A stretch of DNA of 64,000 nucleotides from Bacteroidetes bacterium 2013_40CM_41_45 (lineage in GTDB: Bacteria; Bacteroidota; Bacteroidia; AKYH767-A; 2013-40CM-41-45): positions 62,001 through 126,000 of the forward strand of contig NGFH01000009.1 in NCBI GenBank assembly GCA_002215675.1, written 5' to 3'. Within the stretch, counting starts at the first letter, position 1, and each line of letters begins with the position of its first letter. The position numbers were made by a program, and so were the translations under genes. Below are positions 18,137 to 63,900 of this stretch, in pieces. Below the pieces are notes generated by a model that ran no database searches, was not told the origin of the DNA, and worked only from the letters and a program-made list of their open reading frames with translations.

Positions 18137-20320
18137 TTATTCAATTATGACTTTTCCGTAACCGAGTAGTTCATTGTTACCGGTTACTTTGTAGAAATAT
18201 ATTCCACTTTGTAAGCTGCCTCGGTCAAATTTGAAGCTTGAAGTTTGAGGTTTGAGGTTTAAAACTTTTCTTCCCATAACATCATACAGTACAAAATCGT
18301 AAATCGTAAATCGTAAATCGTAAATCCGGATTGTTGCCGAGGTGCTGAACGGATTTGGAAAAATCTCAACGGCATTTTCAAAATGGTTTTCTCCCGCTGC
18401 GGAAGTTATAAGACAAGAATTATCAAGAAAGCGCGAAAGCAGCCGCACGTATGCTGCTTGTGTATAGATACCAATTTCGGTAACTGTCCATGAATTCTGG
18501 GGCCAGCCGGTGTTCCAGTCATAATACGATTTTTGTATGGGTTGATTTAGTGGAGGGGTCACCAGTGTAGGGTTGCAAAGCGCATTGAAGCTTGCGCAAT
18601 TAGTGGGACAGCAGGCATCAACGGCATAAGAAGGATTCGGTCCGCCCGGAACAAAGCCGGGCGCAGGCCCATAGGTAGAAACTCCAACTCTATCCCATAA
18701 AGCGCTTCCGTCAGTAAACCATGAATGATAAAATTCATTGATGGAATTTTCAGCTTCATAATTTCCCATGTTGCTCAGGTAAGCGAAGGCAGTGGGATTA
18801 ATTCCATGAAAATAATTTACAAAGCCCAGGGCGGCTTCGGTATAATTGGTGTTGTTAGCCGCATCAAGATTATATTGAATCATATTCGTAAACATAATTC
18901 CCTGCCTTGCCTTGGTAGTGTTGCTTCCCCAGGTGTAATTGTTGTCGGCAAGAAACGCGCGGTAGGCATCCGTTTGATTCAGATACGCCTGCAGATTATC
19001 CGGGTTACCGTTTTGAAGTGAGTTTCTGTAATTGTTTTTTATATCTGTTGCGACAGAAGTAGTGGCATTGTTCATTGCAGCATAATAAAGAAGCATGTTC
19101 TGCTCGGCAGCTTCAAACGGGTAAGCATAACCCCATTGTATTAAATGCATCTGCGAATAATTGTTGTCTATAAATGCCTGGTACGAGCTGTTTCCTGTAA
19201 GTTCGAGCAGAAAAACAGCAGCAGCCATTTTTCTTACCGACACGTCATAAGTTCCAACCTCCTGTTCACCTGCAGCAATAATTCCCGAACTAAAAAAAGT
19301 AACATTCGGATTGCTATTAGCCCAGGTGTATGCGCTTAAAGCAGCATTCATCAGCGTATTTCCATACACAGATTGACCAATACTGTTAAAATGAATTGCT
19401 CCGAATGCAAACAAGGCTGCGGCCGTAAAAGACGCAGAAGTGGTTGCAGGCCCATAAAGCCGCTGTGCATTGTCTGCCGATGGCGGGCTAGCTGATGCAA
19501 AATTCTGAACACCCACCACGCTAAGCACAGAGCCGTCCGTTTGTTGCATGCGAAGCAGCCAGTCCATTTCGTATTTTACTTCATCCAGAATATCGGGAAT
19601 GCCGTTGCCCGATTCCGGAATATTATAATCATCGCCCCAAACATTTGGACTTTCTGAATAGGCAAACATTAAGTCGAGCATTGGTTCAAAAGTGAAGTTC
19701 ACGTATTTATTATAGTCGCCTGCATCATGCCACCCACCTGACAGATTTTTTGAGGTGCTGGCGGCAGTGTTACTGTATAAGCGACAATCGGTATCTTGTA
19801 AGGCACCCACGTGGCAGACGGCATCTGTCCAGCCGGTTTGCGCATAAGGCGATGCTTTTGCACAGCCGCAGCGCTGGTAATAAAATGCGCGAAACGCCTG
19901 CTTCATTACATCTTTGTATACGCAGTCGCCGATTTCAAATTTATAAGAGCCCACATTATTATTTACATCGAATACATAATAAAAGCCGGGCATGGTAACA
20001 GAAGAGAAATCGAACCACCATACTTTGTCACCGCTTTGCGCATGCGTTGCCCCGCCGTTCCATTGAGAAATAATCCCTGCATAAATAAGGGCGTCATCGC
20101 TCCACCTACGGATTTGATAATTGCCGCCGGGGGAAAAAGTATCGGTAGCATTATATCCTGCCTGGGGATTACTGATGACGGCTATTTTTTTATCCGTAGT
20201 TCTGTAACCGAACTGGTCGACTTTAATATGATTGTCAATGAGCGCAGGGGGTATAGCCGCGGCAGAAAGGCTGATTACCACGGCAAGCGAAAACAATAAG
20301 CGGTGGAAAAAAAAATTCAT
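18137..20320 (-). CDS. secreted glycoside hydrolase family 9 enzyme with T9SS sorting domain
   Basis: 727 residues. The order is signal peptide (1-22), an N-terminal Ig-like domain of the cellulase type (about 30-130), a GH9 alpha/alpha barrel (about 135-635) and a T9SS type A sorting domain (about 650-727). The GH9 catalytic aspartates lie in GGWHDAGDYNKY near residue 195, and the catalytic acid is the Glu of WTVTEIGIYTQAA near 620. GH9 enzymes are inverting beta-1,4-glucanases or exo-glucosaminidases; the substrate is not certain. The sorting domain is interrupted by two heptanucleotide arrays encoding LKPQTSSFKF and RIYDLRFTIYDF. Convergent with the upstream TPR gene, 4 bp apart. Confidence 0.92.
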   Translation of the reverse strand: MNFFFHRLLFSLAVVISLSAAAIPPALIDNHIKVDQFGYRTTDKKIAVISNPQAGYNATDTFSPGGNYQIRRWSDDALIYAGIISQWNGGATHAQSGDKVWWFDFSSVTMPGFYYVFDVNNNVGSYKFEIGDCVYKDVMKQAFRAFYYQRCGCAKASPYAQTGWTDAVCHVGALQDTDCRLYSNTAASTSKNLSGGWHDAGDYNKYVNFTFEPMLDLMFAYSESPNVWGDDYNIPESGNGIPDILDEVKYEMDWLLRMQQTDGSVLSVVGVQNFASASPPSADNAQRLYGPATTSASFTAAALFAFGAIHFNSIGQSVYGNTLMNAALSAYTWANSNPNVTFFSSGIIAAGEQEVGTYDVSVRKMAAAVFLLELTGNSSYQAFIDNNYSQMHLIQWGYAYPFEAAEQNMLLYYAAMNNATTSVATDIKNNYRNSLQNGNPDNLQAYLNQTDAYRAFLADNNYTWGSNTTKARQGIMFTNMIQYNLDAANNTNYTEAALGFVNYFHGINPTAFAYLSNMGNYEAENSINEFYHSWFTDGSALWDRVGVSTYGPAPGFVPGGPNPSYAVDACCPTNCASFNALCNPTLVTPPLNQPIQKSYYDWNTGWPQNSWTVTEIGIYTQAAYVRLLSRFLDNSCLITSAAGENHFENAVEIFPNPFSTSATIRIYDLRFTIYDFVLYDVMGRKVLNLKPQTSSFKFDRGSLQSGIYFYKVTGNNELLGYGKVIIE
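18230..18264. repeat. heptad array (TTTGAAG/TTTGAGG type), five units
   Basis: Five consecutive 7-bp units: TTTGAAG, CTTGAAG, TTTGAGG, TTTGAGG, TTTAAAA. It lies inside the sorting domain of the GH9 gene and is read on the minus strand as LKPQTSSFKF. Confidence 0.85.
18294..18326. repeat. perfect heptanucleotide repeat (AAATCGT)x4
   Basis: Four exact copies of AAATCGT followed by a partial AAATC, 30 bp from the previous array and in the same sorting domain. A change of one unit would shift the reading frame of the GH9 C-terminus and could detach the enzyme from T9SS export. Confidence 0.92.
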
Positions 20321-21629: not shown

Positions 21630-22895
21630 ATGAACCGTGGAATTCTTTTTTTAATTCTCAATTCTGTATTCTTAATTCTTAATTTCTCCTGTGCTACTCC
21701 GGGTAATATCCAGAATGAAAATCTTTCTTATCTCTACAGGAAGGATAAGCAGCATTTTAGTGTAAAGTTTAATGTCTGGCATTTTTCTAATGACAGCTCT
21801 CAGCTTTTCATCCGCGTTGACCCGAAAGAATTTCTATACAAGCGCAGCGGTGACTTTTTTACTGCCGAGGTTTCTGTCAGCTATCGACTGCTTGAATCGT
21901 ACGAGAATCCATTGCTCATAGACAGCGCAAGTAAAAAATTTATATTTCAGAAAAAAGAAAATCCTTTACCGGTGACGGTGAGTTTGGAATTCCGTTCAAG
22001 CCGGCAGATAGAAATGCTGATGGAATGTAAAATCAGCGATGTTAGCAAAAACATCACCGATATTTTTTACTTCAACGTTGACCGCTCAACAGAGCAAAGC
22101 AGAAATTATTTCCGGGTAGCTCCACTGCATGATGAAACTCCTTTCTTCTCATATGGCATCTCACCGGCAGACAGTTTTCGAATTCTGCATAAGGATACTT
22201 CGTTCAAAAATCTTATTGTGCATTATTACCACCGCGATTTCCCCCTGGCGGCTCCGCCTTTCTCTTTCGATTATCACGAATCATTCGATTACAAATCCGA
22301 CAGCATATTTACTATTGAGATTGGAGAAGGGAAAATATTTTCTTTTCCCGGTGAAGGATTTTACCACATTCAGAAAGACACAACCGTAAAATCGGGCCTC
22401 ACGCTTTTCCGTTTTTATCCTGATTTTCCAAACCTTACCAATCCCGAACAATTGCTTGCGCCTATTCGCTACCTCACAGCCCGCAGGGAGTTTGATGACA
22501 TGAAAAGTAATAAAGATTATAAAACAGCAGTGGATAAATTCTGGCTCGATGCCGGCGGCAATCCTGAACGAACACGATACCTGATTAAAAAATATTATTC
22601 GCGTGTGCAGTTCGCGAATGAAAATTTCACCTCCTATTTGGAAGGATGGAAAACCGATCGTGGACTTATCTACATAATTTTCGGCCCGCCTCACATGGTT
22701 TACCGTACTTCAAAAACAGAAGTATGGATTTATGGAGAAGCATCTGCAGCAATGTCATTGAATTTTTCTTTTATAAAAGTGATTAATCCTTTTACAGATA
22801 ATGACTATACACTAAGCCGTGCTCCTGTTTACGAATCAAACTGGTATCGCGCTGTGGATATGTGGCGGCAGGGAAGAGTGTACAATGATTTTTGA
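21630..22895 (+). CDS. GWxTD domain-containing lipoprotein
   Basis: 421 residues. The signal sequence ends NFSC, with Cys21 as the lipidation site. The C-terminal region (about 290-400) has FWLDAGGNPERTRYLIKKYY, then EGWKTDRGLIYIIFGPP and VWIYGE, the hallmarks of the GWxTD domain (TIGR04514), found in Bacteroidota and relatives and of unknown function. The middle portion is beta-rich. The signal peptide itself is encoded by a heptad array (see 21653-21687), which may explain its repeated FLILN look. The stop is 9 bp from the converging dtd gene. Confidence 0.9.
   Translation: MNRGILFLILNSVFLILNFSCATPGNIQNENLSYLYRKDKQHFSVKFNVWHFSNDSSQLFIRVDPKEFLYKRSGDFFTAEVSVSYRLLESYENPLLIDSASKKFIFQKKENPLPVTVSLEFRSSRQIEMLMECKISDVSKNITDIFYFNVDRSTEQSRNYFRVAPLHDETPFFSYGISPADSFRILHKDTSFKNLIVHYYHRDFPLAAPPFSFDYHESFDYKSDSIFTIEIGEGKIFSFPGEGFYHIQKDTTVKSGLTLFRFYPDFPNLTNPEQLLAPIRYLTARREFDDMKSNKDYKTAVDKFWLDAGGNPERTRYLIKKYYSRVQFANENFTSYLEGWKTDRGLIYIIFGPPHMVYRTSKTEVWIYGEASAAMSLNFSFIKVINPFTDNDYTLSRAPVYESNWYRAVDMWRQGRVYNDF
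21653..21687. repeat. heptad array (AATTCTN type) inside a signal peptide
   Basis: Five units: AATTCTC, AATTCTG, TATTCTT, AATTCTT, AATTTCT. They encode most of the hydrophobic core of the GWxTD lipoprotein signal peptide (LNSVFLILNFS). Confidence 0.85.
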
Positions 22896-23357: not shown

Positions 23358-23366
23358 TGAGAGGAG

Positions 23367-23394
23367 TTATATGTTATACGTTATAAGTTATACG
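23367..23394. repeat. heptad array (TTATACG type), four units
   Basis: TTATATG, TTATACG, TTATAAG, TTATACG in register between rsgA and dtd. The reverse strand would contain TAA in a reading frame, consistent with this unit type occurring only between genes. Confidence 0.85.
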
Positions 23395-24783: not shown

Positions 24784-24791
24784 GATGAAAG

Positions 24792-24861
24792 TTATCCGTT
24801 ATCCGTTATTTTATCCGCTGGAACTGCGAATTCCAATAACGGATGACAAATAACGGATAAA
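24792..24861. repeat. paired heptad arrays forming an inverted repeat (TTATCCG type)
   Basis: The left arm is TTATCCG, TTATCCG, TTATTTT (24792-24812). The right arm, 24834-24861, reads on the other strand as TTATCCG, TTATTTG, TCATCCG, TTATTG. TTATCCGTTAT at 24792-24802 and ATAACGGATAA at 24850-24860 pair exactly. It fills most of the gap between msrA and the DUF4293-like gene. Confidence 0.88.
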
Positions 24862-29661: not shown

Positions 29662-29720
29662 TTAGTTAATTTCTGAAATAGTATATCAAATGAAGTCGCA
29701 CTTTGGACGAAAACTGCTTG

Positions 29721-29802
29721 TTATATGTTATTTGTTATACGTTATACGCAAATCCGTCAACTTTGTAACCATATCGTATAACATATAATGTATAACGTAT
29801 AA
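29721..29802. repeat. paired heptad arrays forming an inverted repeat (TTATACG type)
   Basis: The left arm is TTATATG, TTATTTG, TTATACG, TTATACG (29721-29748). The right arm is CGTATAA, CATATAA, TGTATAA, CGTATAA (29775-29802), the reverse complement pattern, with a 26-bp spacer. It lies between the two Skp genes. Confidence 0.92.
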
Positions 29803-29879
29803 CTATTTCTTTTAATATCGCACCCCCGATTAGTATTATCGGTCATTAAGAAATTATTTCATTTAACTATTCTAAAATC

Positions 29880-32360: not shown

Positions 32361-33587
32361 TTATTGCTTAACCAGCTTGAGAATAGAAACTTTATTTTCT
32401 GTCCGGGTCTTTACAAAATAAACTCCCGGGGCAAAAGATGAAACATCCAAAGTGATTTGAGATTGAGGATTTGAGGTTCGGGATTGAAAAACGGACTGAC
32501 CAAATGCGTCAAAAATTTCTACGTGTTCAATGTTTAATTCTGAATTCTTAATTCTTAATTCTGCATTTGCCGGATTAGGATAAAGAATTGCTGGCTGCAA
32601 ATCGGCCGTTAGCTCATTCTCGCCCACTGTATTGTTATTCAGAAACCATGGAACTGAAGTTGAATCTGTGGAAAAGAAATTGAAAAGCAAATCCGCGACC
32701 TTTTGCCTGCCGGGCATTGCAGGATGTGTACCGTCCGAATTAAAATCAGCAGGGCAAACCCAGGTTAATCCGTCACTTCGTGGAATAAGACCATCGGCCC
32801 AGAGGTAAGGCCCCCATGCAAGCCATGCAGAGTTCGGAGAAGAGCCGGTGAAAGTCAGAGAGGTGTCTCCGCTAATCTGGTCTTCTATCAACCGCTTTAC
32901 GCTCCATCCCGAATAATAAGCATAAGGTTCAGGATTAAGTGTCGAGGTAGCATAACCCGCATAAATTCTGCTCGATAAATAACATAGTTTAAGATTTGGA
33001 AATTTTGTTTTACACAATTGCATTGCCTGGCGGAATTTATTTTTCAACGCATCAGGATACGTGGCGAATGATGTGTCTGTAGGACTGATTTCTGCCTGCT
33101 TGAACCACGCCACCTGGACTTGCTGCCTTGTTTTGCCTGCAGAGGCAAGACGGCTGTTTACCGTGGGCCAAAATGACCCGGTGGTGTCAAGCATTTGCAT
33201 GATGGCCTGTCCGCCCTGGGCGCAGTCAACAAGTTTAAGTTTGGGATTCTTAAGAGAAAAAGTATCCGTCAGGGGAATAAAAACCTGCGTCTCCTGCGTG
33301 GTGTTTGACATGCCGAGTGAAACCCAGACAACACTTCCGTTTGCAGCATCAATGTTTCCGCTGGTGTCGAGCGGCTGGATGTTGTTTGCAATACTAAGTC
33401 CCGCGTTCATATGCGAAACAGGAATAAAATTTGAACCGTTAGGATACAATCCTCCCATAGCTCCATGCCAATATCCAGCACCCAAATCATTTATAGGAGG
33501 ATAGCCCACTGATGTATTGCTGCAATTTTGAGCAGACGAAAACAGAGTGCTTAAAACGCAAATGAAAATGAAAGTAGTTTTCTTCAT
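32361..33587 (-). CDS. secreted SGNH/GDSL-hydrolase-like protein with T9SS sorting domain
   Basis: 408 residues. The signal peptide ends FSSAQ. The body has VVWVSLGMSN near 87-96, where GMSN could supply the nucleophile region, VDCAQGGQAI near 138, and DGTHPAMPGRQKVADLL near 290, a plausible Asp-x-x-His pair as in SGNH esterases. The block resembles sialate O-acetylesterase-type folds but is not a clear match. The type A sorting domain (about 335-408; LYPNPAN, IFDAFGQSV, GVYFVKTRT) carries two heptad arrays. The exact substrate is unknown. Confidence 0.8.
   Translation of the reverse strand: MKKTTFIFICVLSTLFSSAQNCSNTSVGYPPINDLGAGYWHGAMGGLYPNGSNFIPVSHMNAGLSIANNIQPLDTSGNIDAANGSVVWVSLGMSNTTQETQVFIPLTDTFSLKNPKLKLVDCAQGGQAIMQMLDTTGSFWPTVNSRLASAGKTRQQVQVAWFKQAEISPTDTSFATYPDALKNKFRQAMQLCKTKFPNLKLCYLSSRIYAGYATSTLNPEPYAYYSGWSVKRLIEDQISGDTSLTFTGSSPNSAWLAWGPYLWADGLIPRSDGLTWVCPADFNSDGTHPAMPGRQKVADLLFNFFSTDSTSVPWFLNNNTVGENELTADLQPAILYPNPANAELRIKNSELNIEHVEIFDAFGQSVFQSRTSNPQSQITLDVSSFAPGVYFVKTRTENKVSILKLVKQ
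32454..32488. repeat. heptad array (GATTTGA/GATTGAG type) in a sorting domain
   Basis: GATTTGA, GATTGAG, GATTTGA, GGTTCGG, GATTGAA in register; read on the minus strand as SRTSNPQSQI. Confidence 0.8.
32536..32563. repeat. heptad array (AATTCTT type) in a sorting domain
   Basis: AATTCTG, AATTCTT, AATTCTT, AATTCTG in register; read on the minus strand as AELRIKNSELN between the PNP motif and the next strand of the same sorting domain. Confidence 0.85.
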
Positions 33588-52417: not shown

Positions 52418-52424
52418 ATAAATG

Positions 52425-52459
52425 CAGAATTAAGAATTAAGAATGCAAAATTAATTTTG
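52425..52459. repeat. heptad array (AAGAATT type) downstream of the tRNA copy
   Basis: CAGAATT, AAGAATT, AAGAATG, CAAAATT, AATTTTG in register, 8 bp after the end of the broken tRNA and ending 24 bp before the next start codon. Confidence 0.8.
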
Positions 52460-54905: not shown

Positions 54906-55550
54906 TCAGGGAATGTTCATGTATTTATGCGTCTGTAACGAAATTCTCCACTTAGGGTTTTGCCGCACGTAATTAATTATGAGAGGAATCATTTCATCCT
55001 GCCTGCTGTGTTCGGGCTGCAGAAAGAGTTTACATGCACTATTTACCGTCGCTGCATGCTCTTCAGCCCAATCAAAGTCGAAGCGGTTATAGATTACAAC
55101 TTTGAGTTCATTCGCTTTTTCAAGAGCGCTTTTCATCGGGGCTTTGAACTTTTTGGGAGAAACACAAATCCAATCCCACTCACCCGTTAATGGATAAGCG
55201 CCCGATGTTTCGAGCCAAAGACGAATCTTATTTTGATGAAAAATATCTGTGAGGTAAGTCAAATCATTCATCATCGGTTCGCCTCCCGTAATGACGGCAG
55301 TTGAGGCATTCGCATTCTGAACAAGCTCAACCATTTCCTCAATGCGTGACAGTGGATGCTTCTCTGCATTCCATGAATCTTTTACATCGCACCACACGCA
55401 TCCTACATCGCAGCCGCCCAGACGAAGAAAGTACGCAGGGGTCCCCGTGTTATATCCCTCACCCTGGATAGTGTAATAGTGCTCCATGAGTGGAAGTTGC
55501 TCCGCCAGAATAATTTCGGATTTCGGATTTTGAATTTCGAACTTGTTCAT
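54906..55550 (-). CDS. queE: 7-carboxy-7-deazaguanine synthase (radical SAM)
   Basis: 214 residues. The [14 protein letters not shown] segment, the modified radical-SAM cluster motif [12 protein letters not shown] (CxxxCxxC), and [11 protein letters not shown] match QueE, which converts CPH4 to CDG for queuosine synthesis. The first 17 residues ([12 protein letters not shown]) come from a heptad array and are not part of the family. An internal Met at residue 22 is an alternative start, but conserved residues LPL lie before it. Its start overlaps folD by 4 bp. Confidence 0.94.
55513..55547. repeat. heptad array (ATTTCGG type) at the QueE N-terminus
   Basis: ATTTCGG, ATTTCGG, ATTTTGA, ATTTCGA, ACTTGTT in register; read on the minus strand as [12 protein letters not shown]. 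Confidence 0.85.
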
Positions 55551-57867: not shown

Positions 57868-59340
57868 GTGAAATCTGCATTCAAATACGTTTTATTGGTA
57901 CTTGTAATTATTTTTTCTGTCTCTTCCTGTAGAAAAGATATTATTTTGTCAGACACCAACGCAAAACTTCGTTTTTCACAAGACACCATCATTTTTGATA
58001 CGGTATTCGTAACTGTCGGTTCAATAACGGAAGTATTTAAGGTCTACAATGATTATAACGAGGATATTCATATTTCCTCGCTGCGGCTTGCAACAGGGAA
58101 TTCATCACGGTACCGCCTTAATGTGGATGGCATGCCTGGAAAAATTTTCAGTGATGTGGAAATCCGTGCCAAAGACAGCTTGTTCATTTTTGTGGAAGTG
58201 ACTATTGACCCTCATAGTATTTCTACCCCTTTTGTCGTTACCGATTCCATAGTTTTTATAACCAATGGGAATATCCAGGATGTTGATTTGGTGGCATGGG
58301 GGCAGAATGCCGTGTTTCATAAGCCACCGCCGGGAAATAATGCCCAGTTAATTTGTAATGAGGTATGGATTGACACGCTTCCTCACGTTATATATGGATA
58401 TGTGATTGTGAATGATAATTGCTCCCTGACGATTGAGAAAGGAACCAATGTTTTTCTGCATCCGGGTTCGGGAATAATTGTTTTGACGGGAGGAACTTTA
58501 ATTGTTAACGGAGAAAAAGATTCTGTGGTAACTTTTACCGGTGACCGTCTTGAAGCAGATTACAGAGAAGTGCCCGGTCAGTGGGACAGGATTCATCTTT
58601 CCAATATCAGCAATGCAAATCTCAATGGCAGCAGTGTAATTTCACAGGGAACGCACAACAGTATAATTAATTATGCGGTGATAAAAAACGGGAACATCGG
58701 TTTGCTGGTGGATACGGTTTACGGAAATATGTCGGACCCGGGGTATACACTTACATTAAACAATACAATTATAGAAAACATGGCAGGCAGCGGTCTTGTA
58801 GCGAGAGGAACAAAAATCAAATCAGGGAATTGTGTTTTTGCGAATGCTTCCCAGTATGCAGCCGCACTTGCCTATGGCGGAAGATATGATTTCCGCCATT
58901 GCACATTTGCAAACTTCTGGAACTTCAGTAACCGCACAACCCCAACGCTGCTCATCAATAATTTTTTTGATACCTATCTTCGTCCCATTGACAGCGCGTA
59001 CTTCGGCAACTGTGTTGTGTACGGAAACATTGCCGATGAGCTCGGCCTCGATTCAATGAACACTTCAGGAAGCCATTTCAATTATTTCTTTGACCACTCG
59101 CTGGTGCAGGCAGGAAGTTCAATTCCTATTACTTCTGTTCATTTTAATACTTGCGTGGTGAACCAGGACCCTAAATTTAAAAACACTGATAATAATAATT
59201 ACGAGTTGGATACATTGTCGAATGCAAAAAACAAAGGCATCATTTCTATCTCATTACCCGATTATCAATTCGATATAAAAGGCATCGACCGCAATCTGTA
59301 TTTGCCCCCGGATTGCGGAGCTTACGAAAGACCGCAATAA
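57868..59340 (+). CDS. lipoprotein with right-handed beta-helix domain
   Basis: About 490 residues from GTG 57868, which gives a lipoprotein signal (VKSAFKYVLLVLVIIFSVSSC). The frame is open nine codons upstream from a TTG at 57841, a less likely start. The mature N-terminus has an Ig/cohesin-like beta region (about 40-130). A stretch of short parallel strands follows (about 165-460; GTNVFLHPGSGIIVLTGGTL, then NGSSVISQGTHNSIINYAVIKNGNIG) as in pectin-lyase-like helices, with GGRYDFRHCTF. Substrate binding at the surface is plausible; no catalytic triad was found. Divergent from ffh. Confidence 0.85.
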   Translation: MKSAFKYVLLVLVIIFSVSSCRKDIILSDTNAKLRFSQDTIIFDTVFVTVGSITEVFKVYNDYNEDIHISSLRLATGNSSRYRLNVDGMPGKIFSDVEIRAKDSLFIFVEVTIDPHSISTPFVVTDSIVFITNGNIQDVDLVAWGQNAVFHKPPPGNNAQLICNEVWIDTLPHVIYGYVIVNDNCSLTIEKGTNVFLHPGSGIIVLTGGTLIVNGEKDSVVTFTGDRLEADYREVPGQWDRIHLSNISNANLNGSSVISQGTHNSIINYAVIKNGNIGLLVDTVYGNMSDPGYTLTLNNTIIENMAGSGLVARGTKIKSGNCVFANASQYAAALAYGGRYDFRHCTFANFWNFSNRTTPTLLINNFFDTYLRPIDSAYFGNCVVYGNIADELGLDSMNTSGSHFNYFFDHSLVQAGSSIPITSVHFNTCVVNQDPKFKNTDNNNYELDTLSNAKNKGIISISLPDYQFDIKGIDRNLYLPPDCGAYERPQ

Positions 59341-59342
59341 GT

Positions 59343-59377
59343 AAATTGAAAATTGAAAATTGAAAATTGAAAATGCA
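59343..59377. repeat. heptad array (AAATTGA type) upstream of hutH
   Basis: AAATTGA four times, then AAATGCA, in register between the lipoprotein stop (59340) and hutH start (59396). Confidence 0.85.
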
Positions 59378-60898: not shown

Positions 60899-60909
60899 TC
60901 AGAGCAACT

Positions 60910-60943
60910 CCCTTCTCCTCTGGAGAAGGGTTGGGGATGAGGC
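60910..60943. repeat. interspersed palindrome (CCCTTCTCC-TCT-GGAGAAGGG family), copy 2
   Basis: A perfect 9-bp stem at 60910-60918 and 60922-60930 with a 3-base loop, followed by TTGGGGATGAGGC, homologous to the flank of copy 1 at 50646-50686 in inverse orientation. It occupies the whole gap between two converging genes and could terminate both. Confidence 0.85.
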
Positions 60944-60944
60944 C

Positions 60945-63900
60945 TTACTGCTTCACAAATCTTCCTGAACTCTTTTTGTCTCCCGATAAAATTTCAATGC
61001 TATAAACACCGGGGCGCAACCCTGAAATATCAATTTTGGTTTCAAGTTTATGGTTTGAAGCTTGCGGCTTATAGCTGTAAACTTTTTGCCCGAGCATGTC
61101 ATAAATTTTAACTGCAATGTCGTGTGTCGCATAACCGGTAATGTATAACTCATCCGTTGCCGGATTAGGATAGATTGCATTTACGTTTCCTGAAAGCTCA
61201 GTAATTCCGTTAATTACATTAATAACCTGGTAGGTGGTATCATAACAAATTCCGTCTGATACAATGTGCATAACTGTATACGGTCCGGTAGGAGTTAAAA
61301 ATGTGTGTGCAGGATTTTGTGTGGTTACCACAGGAGTTCCGTCACCAAAATTCCACCACCATTGTGTTGCCAGGCTTGAACTGCTGGTAAAGCTGTAGTT
61401 ATTGGCAATGTTTGTATAGGAAAATCCGGATTGATTTTGGAATAAAACGGTTACCGGCACCGCGTTGCGCACCGTTATGCAGGGTGCTGTTTGAATAACC
61501 CAATCATAAAAGTAGTAATAATATCCTGAGACACCGGCATTAGAACCCGTGATGGAAATTAATCCTGAGAGATTGTATGGATAGGTAGCGCTTCCGTTTG
61601 TGCGATACAGGTTTGCGGTTCCATTTATTCCAAGATGAAGCCCTGTTCCAACAGAAACAGGGAAGTTTAAAGTTACAATGCTCATCCCCGCAGGGAGATT
61701 AGGGGTAAGCGATTGGAGCACGCTGTCGCTTGAATTCCTTAGCTCAATTGTACGATTACCGGCACCTTGAGCGTACACTTTTACAGAAACTAATGTACAA
61801 GGGGCAAGACAGTCAAAGATGAGATAACGACTGGTGCCGTTGGCAAAAAAACTGCCACCACCAATGCTGTCAACTTTTCCAACATTTCCGCTGGAACCCT
61901 GAATAGCACTTTCTATATAATAGTTTGTATTTGAATAAAGCAGTGGAGTTGTAAATGAGCTACCGGTAGCAAGCGGCAATCCTCCCGTCGGATTGGAATA
62001 CCATGAAATGGCAGGAACGCCTGTTGCAGTAAGCATAGCGCTGGTGCCTTTGCAAACCGATGCGCCGGGACAGGTAGGGCTTTGGTCAGTAAGAACAATA
62101 TAAGCGGTATGAACAGTAGTGTCAGTGCCACAGGCGCCTCCGTCTCCGATTAGAGTCACTGTATATGTGCCGAAATTGGTGTAGACATGACTTGGGTTTG
62201 TTTGCGTGCTTGTAGTGGCATCACCAAAATTCCAAAGATAAGTTCCGGCATTGGTGCTTGTATTTGTAAAGTCGACAGTAAACGGTACACCGCACCCTGT
62301 TGTAACATTTGCATTGAAGCTAGTGCTAACGGCATAAGCAAAAACACCGCCTACACCCACTGCATGCCATGCATTGGTAGTTGCAATTACTTCGGGAGTG
62401 CATGCGCCAAACAAATCAATAGCTGACATGATTGAGTAGAATCTTGAATCGGCATACTGCGAGCTTGACGTTAAGTAAACTGTATTTGTTCTGAAAGCAA
62501 CGTCGCTGGCATTCAGCATTCCGATTCCGGTAACGTTATATGAATCACCAATGTCATTGGTTCCTACGCCGCCCTGACAGAGGAGATAAAACCAATAGTT
62601 CTGAACATTGCTGTTGGTGTGAACACCTCCGTTGTCACCGGGGCCGGTTGCCCAATTAGTTCCCATATAAGTGTCAGGGTCACCAACAGAGTTTGGGTTT
62701 GCCATGTTTCGTATGGTGTAACCAATGTCAGAACCCATAAGCCAGTTGGCATTGGAAGGCCGGCCATAAAATTCCACACACGTTCCGAAGATGTCACTGA
62801 AAGATTCATTGAGCGCACCGGATTCATACGAATAATCAAGAGCAGAGGTGAACTCAGTGAGCCCGTGAGTAATTTCATGACCCGCAATATCAAGAGCAGT
62901 AAATGGATTGGTTGTGCCACTGCCGTCACCATAAGTCATTCGGGTGCCGTCCCAAAATGCATTTGAATAATTAGTACTGTAGTGCACATAATTGTCAAGC
63001 TGAAAACCGTTTCCGTCAATGCCGTTTCGGTTATGAATGAGCCAGTAGTAATCGTACGTCATTTCGGCCCCCCAATGTGCATCGGTAGCATATTGGTCAA
63101 GCTGGGCATTTACATTGTTCCACATATTATCAGCATCGGTAAAATCCACGGCATTTCCGTAATTGGTTCCATCCAGCATGTTGAAAGTGCGTATGCCCAA
63201 ACCACGGTCAGCTTCCTGCAGGCGATATCCCCCGCTGAAACTGTCAGTGATAATGTTCTGTGTTCCACTGTAAGCAGTAATGGCGGTGCCGGGTGTATCC
63301 GTGGTGTGAATCCTGTCTTTCTTTAACAGGATTTCTCCTGTCAGGGCGTCAACATATACATAATCTCTCGAGAGCGGCTCATGAGCATAAACATCAAACT
63401 TCCAGGCAAGGCGCAGATTTTGGCTGTTCAGTTTTCCTGCCGGTGTAACATACACAAGCTCCCCTTTTGGAAAATAAGATGCAGCCGGGTTCTTTTCTCT
63501 TTCCCTGATATAATTTTCTTCGGCAGGAATTTGCCACATATATACAGTTGCATTCACAGCACTCAACGCATTTGCAAGAGCAGCGCTTTCATTAACAGAT
63601 GCAACCGCTCCGATTGAAATATCTGAAAGCAATTCTCCGTTCATCGAAATTACTTTTCCGTTTCTGGTGTGCAGAATATACATCGTTCCTTCAACAGGAA
63701 TATTATTGCAATACTGTTTATAACGATAGTGAGTAAATCCCAGCTCATCGGAAGATGCGTTGAGAAGTTGGAACGAATTTTCTTTGCTCATCCCCAATGC
63801 TGATGAAGCCCACATAGGGAACTCGCCTACAGAAAATGCAGCGGCTTCTTTGAATTTAACATATTTAGGAACAGAAGAAACTTCTCCTGGCAGAACAGCT

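Follow-up and report, generated by a model that had tools for sequence, protein, structure and literature searches.

Tandem arrays of seven-nucleotide units (heptads) probably arise throughout the genome studied here (3.38 Mb, 11 contigs), and two hairpins of its type-A T9SS sorting domains are probably the main coding niche where they are tolerated. The genome contains at least 150 type-A sorting domains; 150 were scored and the DNA was taken for all of them. With a strict definition of an array (lag-7 matches at 12 or more of 14 positions), 28 arrays were obtained in 22 of the 150 domains by a genome-wide search of the kind that the initial annotation had proposed for similar peptides. All of them are confined to two blocks of the alignment: (i) the β2-β3 hairpin (loop 1, from the end of PNPxxxxLxI to the strand preceding YDxxG); (ii) the β4-β5 hairpin (loop 2, from the end of GxxV to the strand preceding GxY). 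The PNP, YDxxG and GxY motifs and all the sequence past GxY have zero array coverage in the 150-domain alignment. Each of the other periods from 4 to 12 is found in 0 or 1 domain, versus 22 for period 7. When all 150 peptides were recoded synonymously (300 trials), arrays were present in a mean of 1.75 domains, with a maximum of 7. Recoding abolishes the signal; the periodicity is thus a property of the DNA. The arrays belong to the class of heptad repeats, i.e., tandem 7-bp units in excess of both chance and other periods. None of the 26 type-B sorting domains carries an array, although the contrast with type A is weak (p = 0.048).

Two other sorting domains of the same genome (C2:228256-228495 and C1:691808-692047) display different repeat-like peptides, DLPAGQAG (CCTGCCTGCCGGACAGGCAGG) in loop 1 and SPLVPLSLRRGDERGEV in loop 2.

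The background sample (264 kb) consisted of the window, i.e., the whole 64-kb stretch of DNA analysed, and of ten 20-kb stretches; these were not picked for sorting domains, and genes were called by a simple open-frame rule. In this sample, intergenic DNA contains 20 arrays in 28.1 kb (0.71/kb) and other coding DNA 10 arrays in 234.8 kb (0.043/kb). The 150 type-A sorting domains, with 28 arrays in 33.5 kb (0.84/kb), are comparable to intergenic DNA (Fisher p = 0.66) and 20-fold above other coding DNA (Fisher p = 6.5e-18). Heptad arrays are mostly intergenic, type-A sorting domains being the exception.

In the window, only period 7 (with its multiple 14) rises above the threshold; ten Markov-simulated windows yielded nothing above it at any period from 4 to 15. 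The arrays reported by the initial annotation in the sorting domains of a GH9 enzyme, an SGNH-like protein and an M4 protease are confirmed (Table 1). Their significance was obtained by comparing the lag-7 identity with that of 5000 synonymous recodings leaving the peptide unchanged. The p values range from 0.0002 to 0.024: 0.0002 for GH9 loop 1, 0.0004 for both GH9 loop 2 and SGNH-like loop 1, 0.014 for the M4 array (0.008 at lag 14) and 0.024 for SGNH-like loop 2 (0.001 at lag 14). The M4 array is absent from the output of the tandem-repeat finder. The position given for one array per domain is correct for loop 2, but the loop-1 arrays of the GH9 and SGNH-like proteins, which are the stronger ones, had been omitted; that of GH9 sits upstream of YDVMG. 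The three sorting domains had also been called unrelated. This is true of the carrier proteins, but the domains themselves are homologous, those of the SGNH-like protein and of the M4 protease having 28-29% identity with that of GH9, and all three score above the TIGR04183 curated cut-off.

Table 1. Heptad arrays and their host domains in the window (positions are those of the window).
Feature	Position	Strand	Remarks
GH9 enzyme, type-A T9SS sorting domain	18140..18364	-	TIGR04183 E 1.1e-11; gene 18137-20320 (-)
GH9 loop-2 array, word CCTCAAA/CTTCAAG	18230..18260	-	encodes LNLKPQTSSFK after GRKV, between β4 and β5
GH9 loop-1 array, word ATTTACG, perfect 4.7-unit AAATCGT	18294..18326	-	encodes IYDLRFTIYDF, spans β2-β3
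AATTCTK array, reverse strand of loop-1 word AATTMAG	21651..21684	+	codes hydrophobic signal-peptide-like FLILNSVFLILNFSCA at gene start (signal peptide read by eye)
GTTATAM array	23365..23394	no strand	intergenic
GTTATCC array	24789..24811	no strand	intergenic
Two facing GTTATAM arrays	29718..29804	no strand	intergenic
SGNH-like protein, type-A sorting domain	32364..32585	-	TIGR04183 E 7.2e-15; gene 32361-33587 (-)
SGNH-like loop-2 array, weak/degenerate, period 7/14	32454..32485	-	encodes SRTSNPQSQI
SGNH-like loop-1 array, strong, word AATTMAG	32536..32567	-	encodes ELRIKNSELNIE
AATTMAG array	52421..52447	no strand	intergenic; word identical to SGNH-like loop 1
ATTTCGG array	55513..55539	-	codes N-terminal start of ORF 54906-55550
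AAATTGA array	59340..59377	no strand	intergenic
M4 protease, type-A sorting domain	60948..61175	-	TIGR04183 E 1.2e-11, Peptidase_M4 E 6e-40; gene 60945-63815 (-)
M4 protease loop-2 array, strongly degenerate	61038..61079	-	encodes YKPQASNHKLET

At 21634-21690 (+), the reverse strand of AATTMAG gives the signal-peptide-like MNRGILFLILNSVFLILNFSCA; both strands of one heptad word would then serve two export signals (signal peptide predicted by eye).

The GH9 sorting domain was modelled from a three-sequence alignment (pLDDT 85), with strands at residues 11-15, 23-27, 33-37, 43-47, 54-62 and 65-74. The best of its PDB matches (TM 0.64-0.72) is RemA-CTD (8gl6_D), the others including the sorting domains of RemZ, mirolase and NucA. 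The TIGR04183 score and the predicted β-sandwich fold place this domain in type A. The GH9 arrays correspond to residues 13-25 and 34-45, i.e., the hairpins β2-β3 and β4-β5 plus parts of the strands; array residues are located in strands predicted with high confidence. In P. gingivalis, T9SS function depends on motif L-β3-β4 and on the C-terminus, while the other loops vary (PMC11285876). The strand-loop-strand found between the two arrays is probably this motif, the strand numbering having been matched by the order of the elements. The arrays would thus occupy variable parts of the sorting domain and avoid the required ones.

The arrays had been described as inserted in the loop. In the sorting domains no net lengthening is seen, array loops having the same length as array-free ones: 17-19 with an array versus a mode of 19 without for the loop-1 block, 20-23 versus 17-29 for the loop-2 block. 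The PCC-β array also aligns gap-free to the linker of solved PCC-β chains. A net insertion is seen in TsaB (17-residue gap in E. coli) and at the first of the two ValS sites. The clearest case of a loop whose content changes at constant length is given by three related domains (C1:721653, C2:220746 and C2:80143), which have the loop-1 word ATTTACG in common and unrelated loop-2 sequences of equal length: array-free, AATTCAA/AATCCGA and CCTCAAA, respectively. Constant loop length is not what a plain model of insertion or expansion would predict.

Since 7 = 1 mod 3, a heptad is read as one seven-residue cycle in every frame, i.e., one word gives one peptide family. Such families include PQTSNLK, ELRIKNS and IYDLRFT. 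Words of the sorting domains are also found between genes: AATTMAG at position 52421 of the window, AAATCGT at C1:11531 and AAATCCG at C1:418850. CCTCAAA arrays occur in this genome in PCC-β, ValS and TsaB (identities backed by PDB matches) and in KdtA, an ABC-F ATPase and methylmalonyl-CoA mutase (MCM), named by eye from sequence. In bacteria of other phyla, PQTSNLK is contained in what seem to be MnmE, threonine synthase, FeoB and further enzymes (also named by eye). No sorting domain was flagged among the 80 foreign CCTCAAA loci read, and one T9SS niche for this word across phyla was rejected on this ground.

Identical words are shared by 43 array pairs within the genome versus 5.4 for letter-shuffled words; the shuffle preserves composition only, and the excess is indicative. 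Close to foreign CCTCAAA sites, 17 of the 89 other arrays use words of this genome (5.6 for shuffled words). In the sorting domains, CCTCAAA is found in loop 2 only, ATTTACG and AATTMAG in loop 1 only. More generally, words are near-identical in 25 of 191 within-loop pairs versus 4 of 187 between-loop pairs (permutation p = 0.0012); this sorting by loop indicates that the protein filters the surviving word. Departures from the word are even across codon positions (30/34/34) and 27% of them are synonymous versus 21% expected, so that selection to keep the exact peptide once an array had arisen is not evident.

The view that the peptides are by-products of DNA heptads is therefore borne out: recoding removes the signal, the words are also intergenic, PQTSNLK is present in unrelated enzymes, the occurrences are scattered on the tree, and the three related domains with a common loop-1 word differ in loop 2. 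The stronger wording of the initial annotation, i.e., spread at the DNA level and not at that of the protein, is right for the DNA origin but not for the exclusion of the protein, as words are sorted by loop. As for the spread itself, the data do not separate copying between sites from repeated birth in place out of a preferred set of words.

Unrelated CCTCAAA sites have no shared flanks, so no linked mobile element is seen. A palindrome, GCTGACGNTNNCGGTCAGC (GCTGACGCTNNCGGTCAGC), has five copies, three of which (C2:110316, C10:128333 and C1:464973) adjoin CCTCAAA arrays. A linked mobile element is ruled out by the absence of common flanks and by this palindrome having five copies only.

Three copies of CCTCAAA in tandem (at most one mismatch) are found in 3 of 41 genomes (this one included), the counts being 8 here and 3 in G006; the exact 20-base form is found in 5 of 296 genomes of the phylum. 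In G006, strict heptads are present in 2 of 25 sorting domains, both in loop 2. Several other loops 2 of G006 (L317, L322, L324, L327, L329, L330 and L334) are filled by palindromes resembling CCCTCTCCTTTGGAGAGGG, which occurs in both orientations, or CCCTGAGCCTGTCGAAGGG; the encoded peptides are SLSFGEGRGE or RSLSLSKGE. Dispersed repeats of at least two classes thus end up in loop 2. The 38 sorting domains sampled from G002, G004, G009, G014 and G022, which are kin at the family or order level only, have no arrays. Among 40 related genomes, none of them of the same genus, the GH9 enzyme has a single match (45% identical).

Two side observations can be added. In the window, an intergenic element, tcccttctcctctggagaagggttggggatgagg, at about 60906-60942 resembles the palindromes of G006 loop 2. 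The CCTCAAA array pattern is matched exactly 17 times in G170 but never in its congener G274 (genus g47), where the reversed word has five matches; this hints at a possible turnover of words between close species.

These results are probably best explained as follows. A genome-wide process would draw on a limited vocabulary to make short tandem heptads of 3-5 units, the majority of these arrays surviving between genes. The generating mechanism is presumably replication (polymerase) slippage or local template switching. Within genes, heptads would persist at places able to accommodate some 10-14 in-frame residues free of stops, i.e., in terminal extensions, linkers and a signal peptide, the chief coding refuge being the β2-β3 and β4-β5 hairpins of the at least 150 type-A sorting domains. 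The protein would act as a filter (i) on word and strand, with no stops, strand-like words in loop 1 and polar words in loop 2; (ii) on loop length; the conserved β3-β4 motif and the C-terminus would exclude arrays. This explains the position, density, word sharing, strand, patchiness and tree scatter of the arrays. Tolerance is the likely cause of the site preference. Tolerance alone may be an incomplete explanation, as the density in sorting domains at least equals that of intergenic DNA despite the cost in frame and stops; counted in the loops alone, the arrays would exceed the intergenic density. Nor does this reading account for the origin of arrays at constant loop length.

Instead of a preferred lexicon, copying could account for the words shared between sites. 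Gene conversion or template switching would then carry sorting-domain DNA or arrays from one to another of the more than 150 homologous domains, shared words reflecting descent. The number of identical words, far above the shuffled expectation, and the three related domains with ATTTACG in loop 1 throughout are in agreement with such copying. It is nevertheless rather unlikely: CCTCAAA sites in unrelated genes do not share flanks, the word is known in other phyla where neighbouring arrays use words of this genome more often than shuffled ones, and arrays do not cluster on the sorting-domain tree (21 changes versus a shuffled-label mean of 20.9; the tree, built from short flanks alone, is poorly resolved). 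With the same reserve on the tree, its scatter together with the differing words rules out inheritance from one ancestral domain.

The sorting of words by loop and the location of array residues in confidently predicted strands would also be expected if β-hairpin peptides with alternating residues were selected, the heptad DNA being a side effect of codon use. Such protein convergence is largely refuted and hardly credible, since the periodicity is lost on synonymous recoding (which rules out any pure protein-level explanation), the same words are intergenic or in unrelated enzymes, and the deviations have no codon-position bias. A phase-variation switch, in which gain or loss of a unit shifts the frame, drops the C-terminal sorting motif and toggles secretion, is very improbable as well. 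A 7-bp step does always alter the downstream frame, and the essential C-terminal motif follows both loops (PMC11285876), but the arrays are imperfect and have just 3-5 units, which sets them apart from typical contingency loci; they are also found in housekeeping enzymes and between genes, and loop lengths are constant.

Heptad repeats are known in bacteria: the heptad LSSRs of Mrazek (2007), as summarised in PMC4679880, TAACTGA arrays in Beggiatoaceae, Cyanobacteria and Bacteroidetes (PMC4679880), GGGNATC arrays in Xanthomonas and Nostoc, under-represented in coding DNA (PMC4692102), and Calothrix heptads, as cited in PMC4692102. The present arrays resemble them, i.e., short tandem arrays with a unit of 7, mainly intergenic, patchy across phyla and with no mobile element seen. 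They differ in having many words per genome versus one dominant word, and a strong coding niche in one domain family whereas those of Xanthomonas and Nostoc are under-represented in coding DNA. A second comparison is that with the Rickettsia palindromic elements (RPE) found in protein genes (reviewed in PMC2229807; see also PMC3767692), where conserved proteins that are not related to each other acquire similar peptides from an in-frame DNA repeat, judged neutral or tolerated. In the same manner CCTCAAA is in frame in TsaB, ValS, PCC-β, KdtA, ABC-F and MCM as well as in sorting domains. However, RPE are palindromes of 100-150 bp with terminal inverted repeats and are net inserts. The arrays here are direct heptad repeats of 21-42 bp with many words and no 100-150 bp palindrome, often without net length change, and concentrated in two loops of one domain. 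The host fold and motifs are as described for the T9SS type-A domain (TIGR04183/PF18962; CTDs of RemA, RemZ, NucA and mirolase). Its variable loops were already known; their filling with heptads is the feature here, and was not found in the literature searched. In summary, heptad repeats (PMC4679880, PMC4692102) and in-frame repeat peptides of Rickettsia (PMC2229807, PMC3767692) are known, and the niche in two loops of the sorting domain is new relative to the literature searched.

The genome offers a clean case in which repeat DNA, and not protein ancestry, is behind common peptides of many secreted enzymes; such shared peptides can mislead motif searches and homology calls. With more than 20 sites in one genome, the origin of heptads (slippage, lexicon or copying) can be tested. 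The arrays also provide a natural map of the parts of the T9SS signal that tolerate variation, in agreement with the mutagenesis of the β3-β4 and C-terminal motifs. It is conceivable, if somewhat doubtful, that they are a continuing source of new secretion-signal hairpins, repeat words becoming working β-strands in more than 20 secreted proteins while length and fold stay constant.
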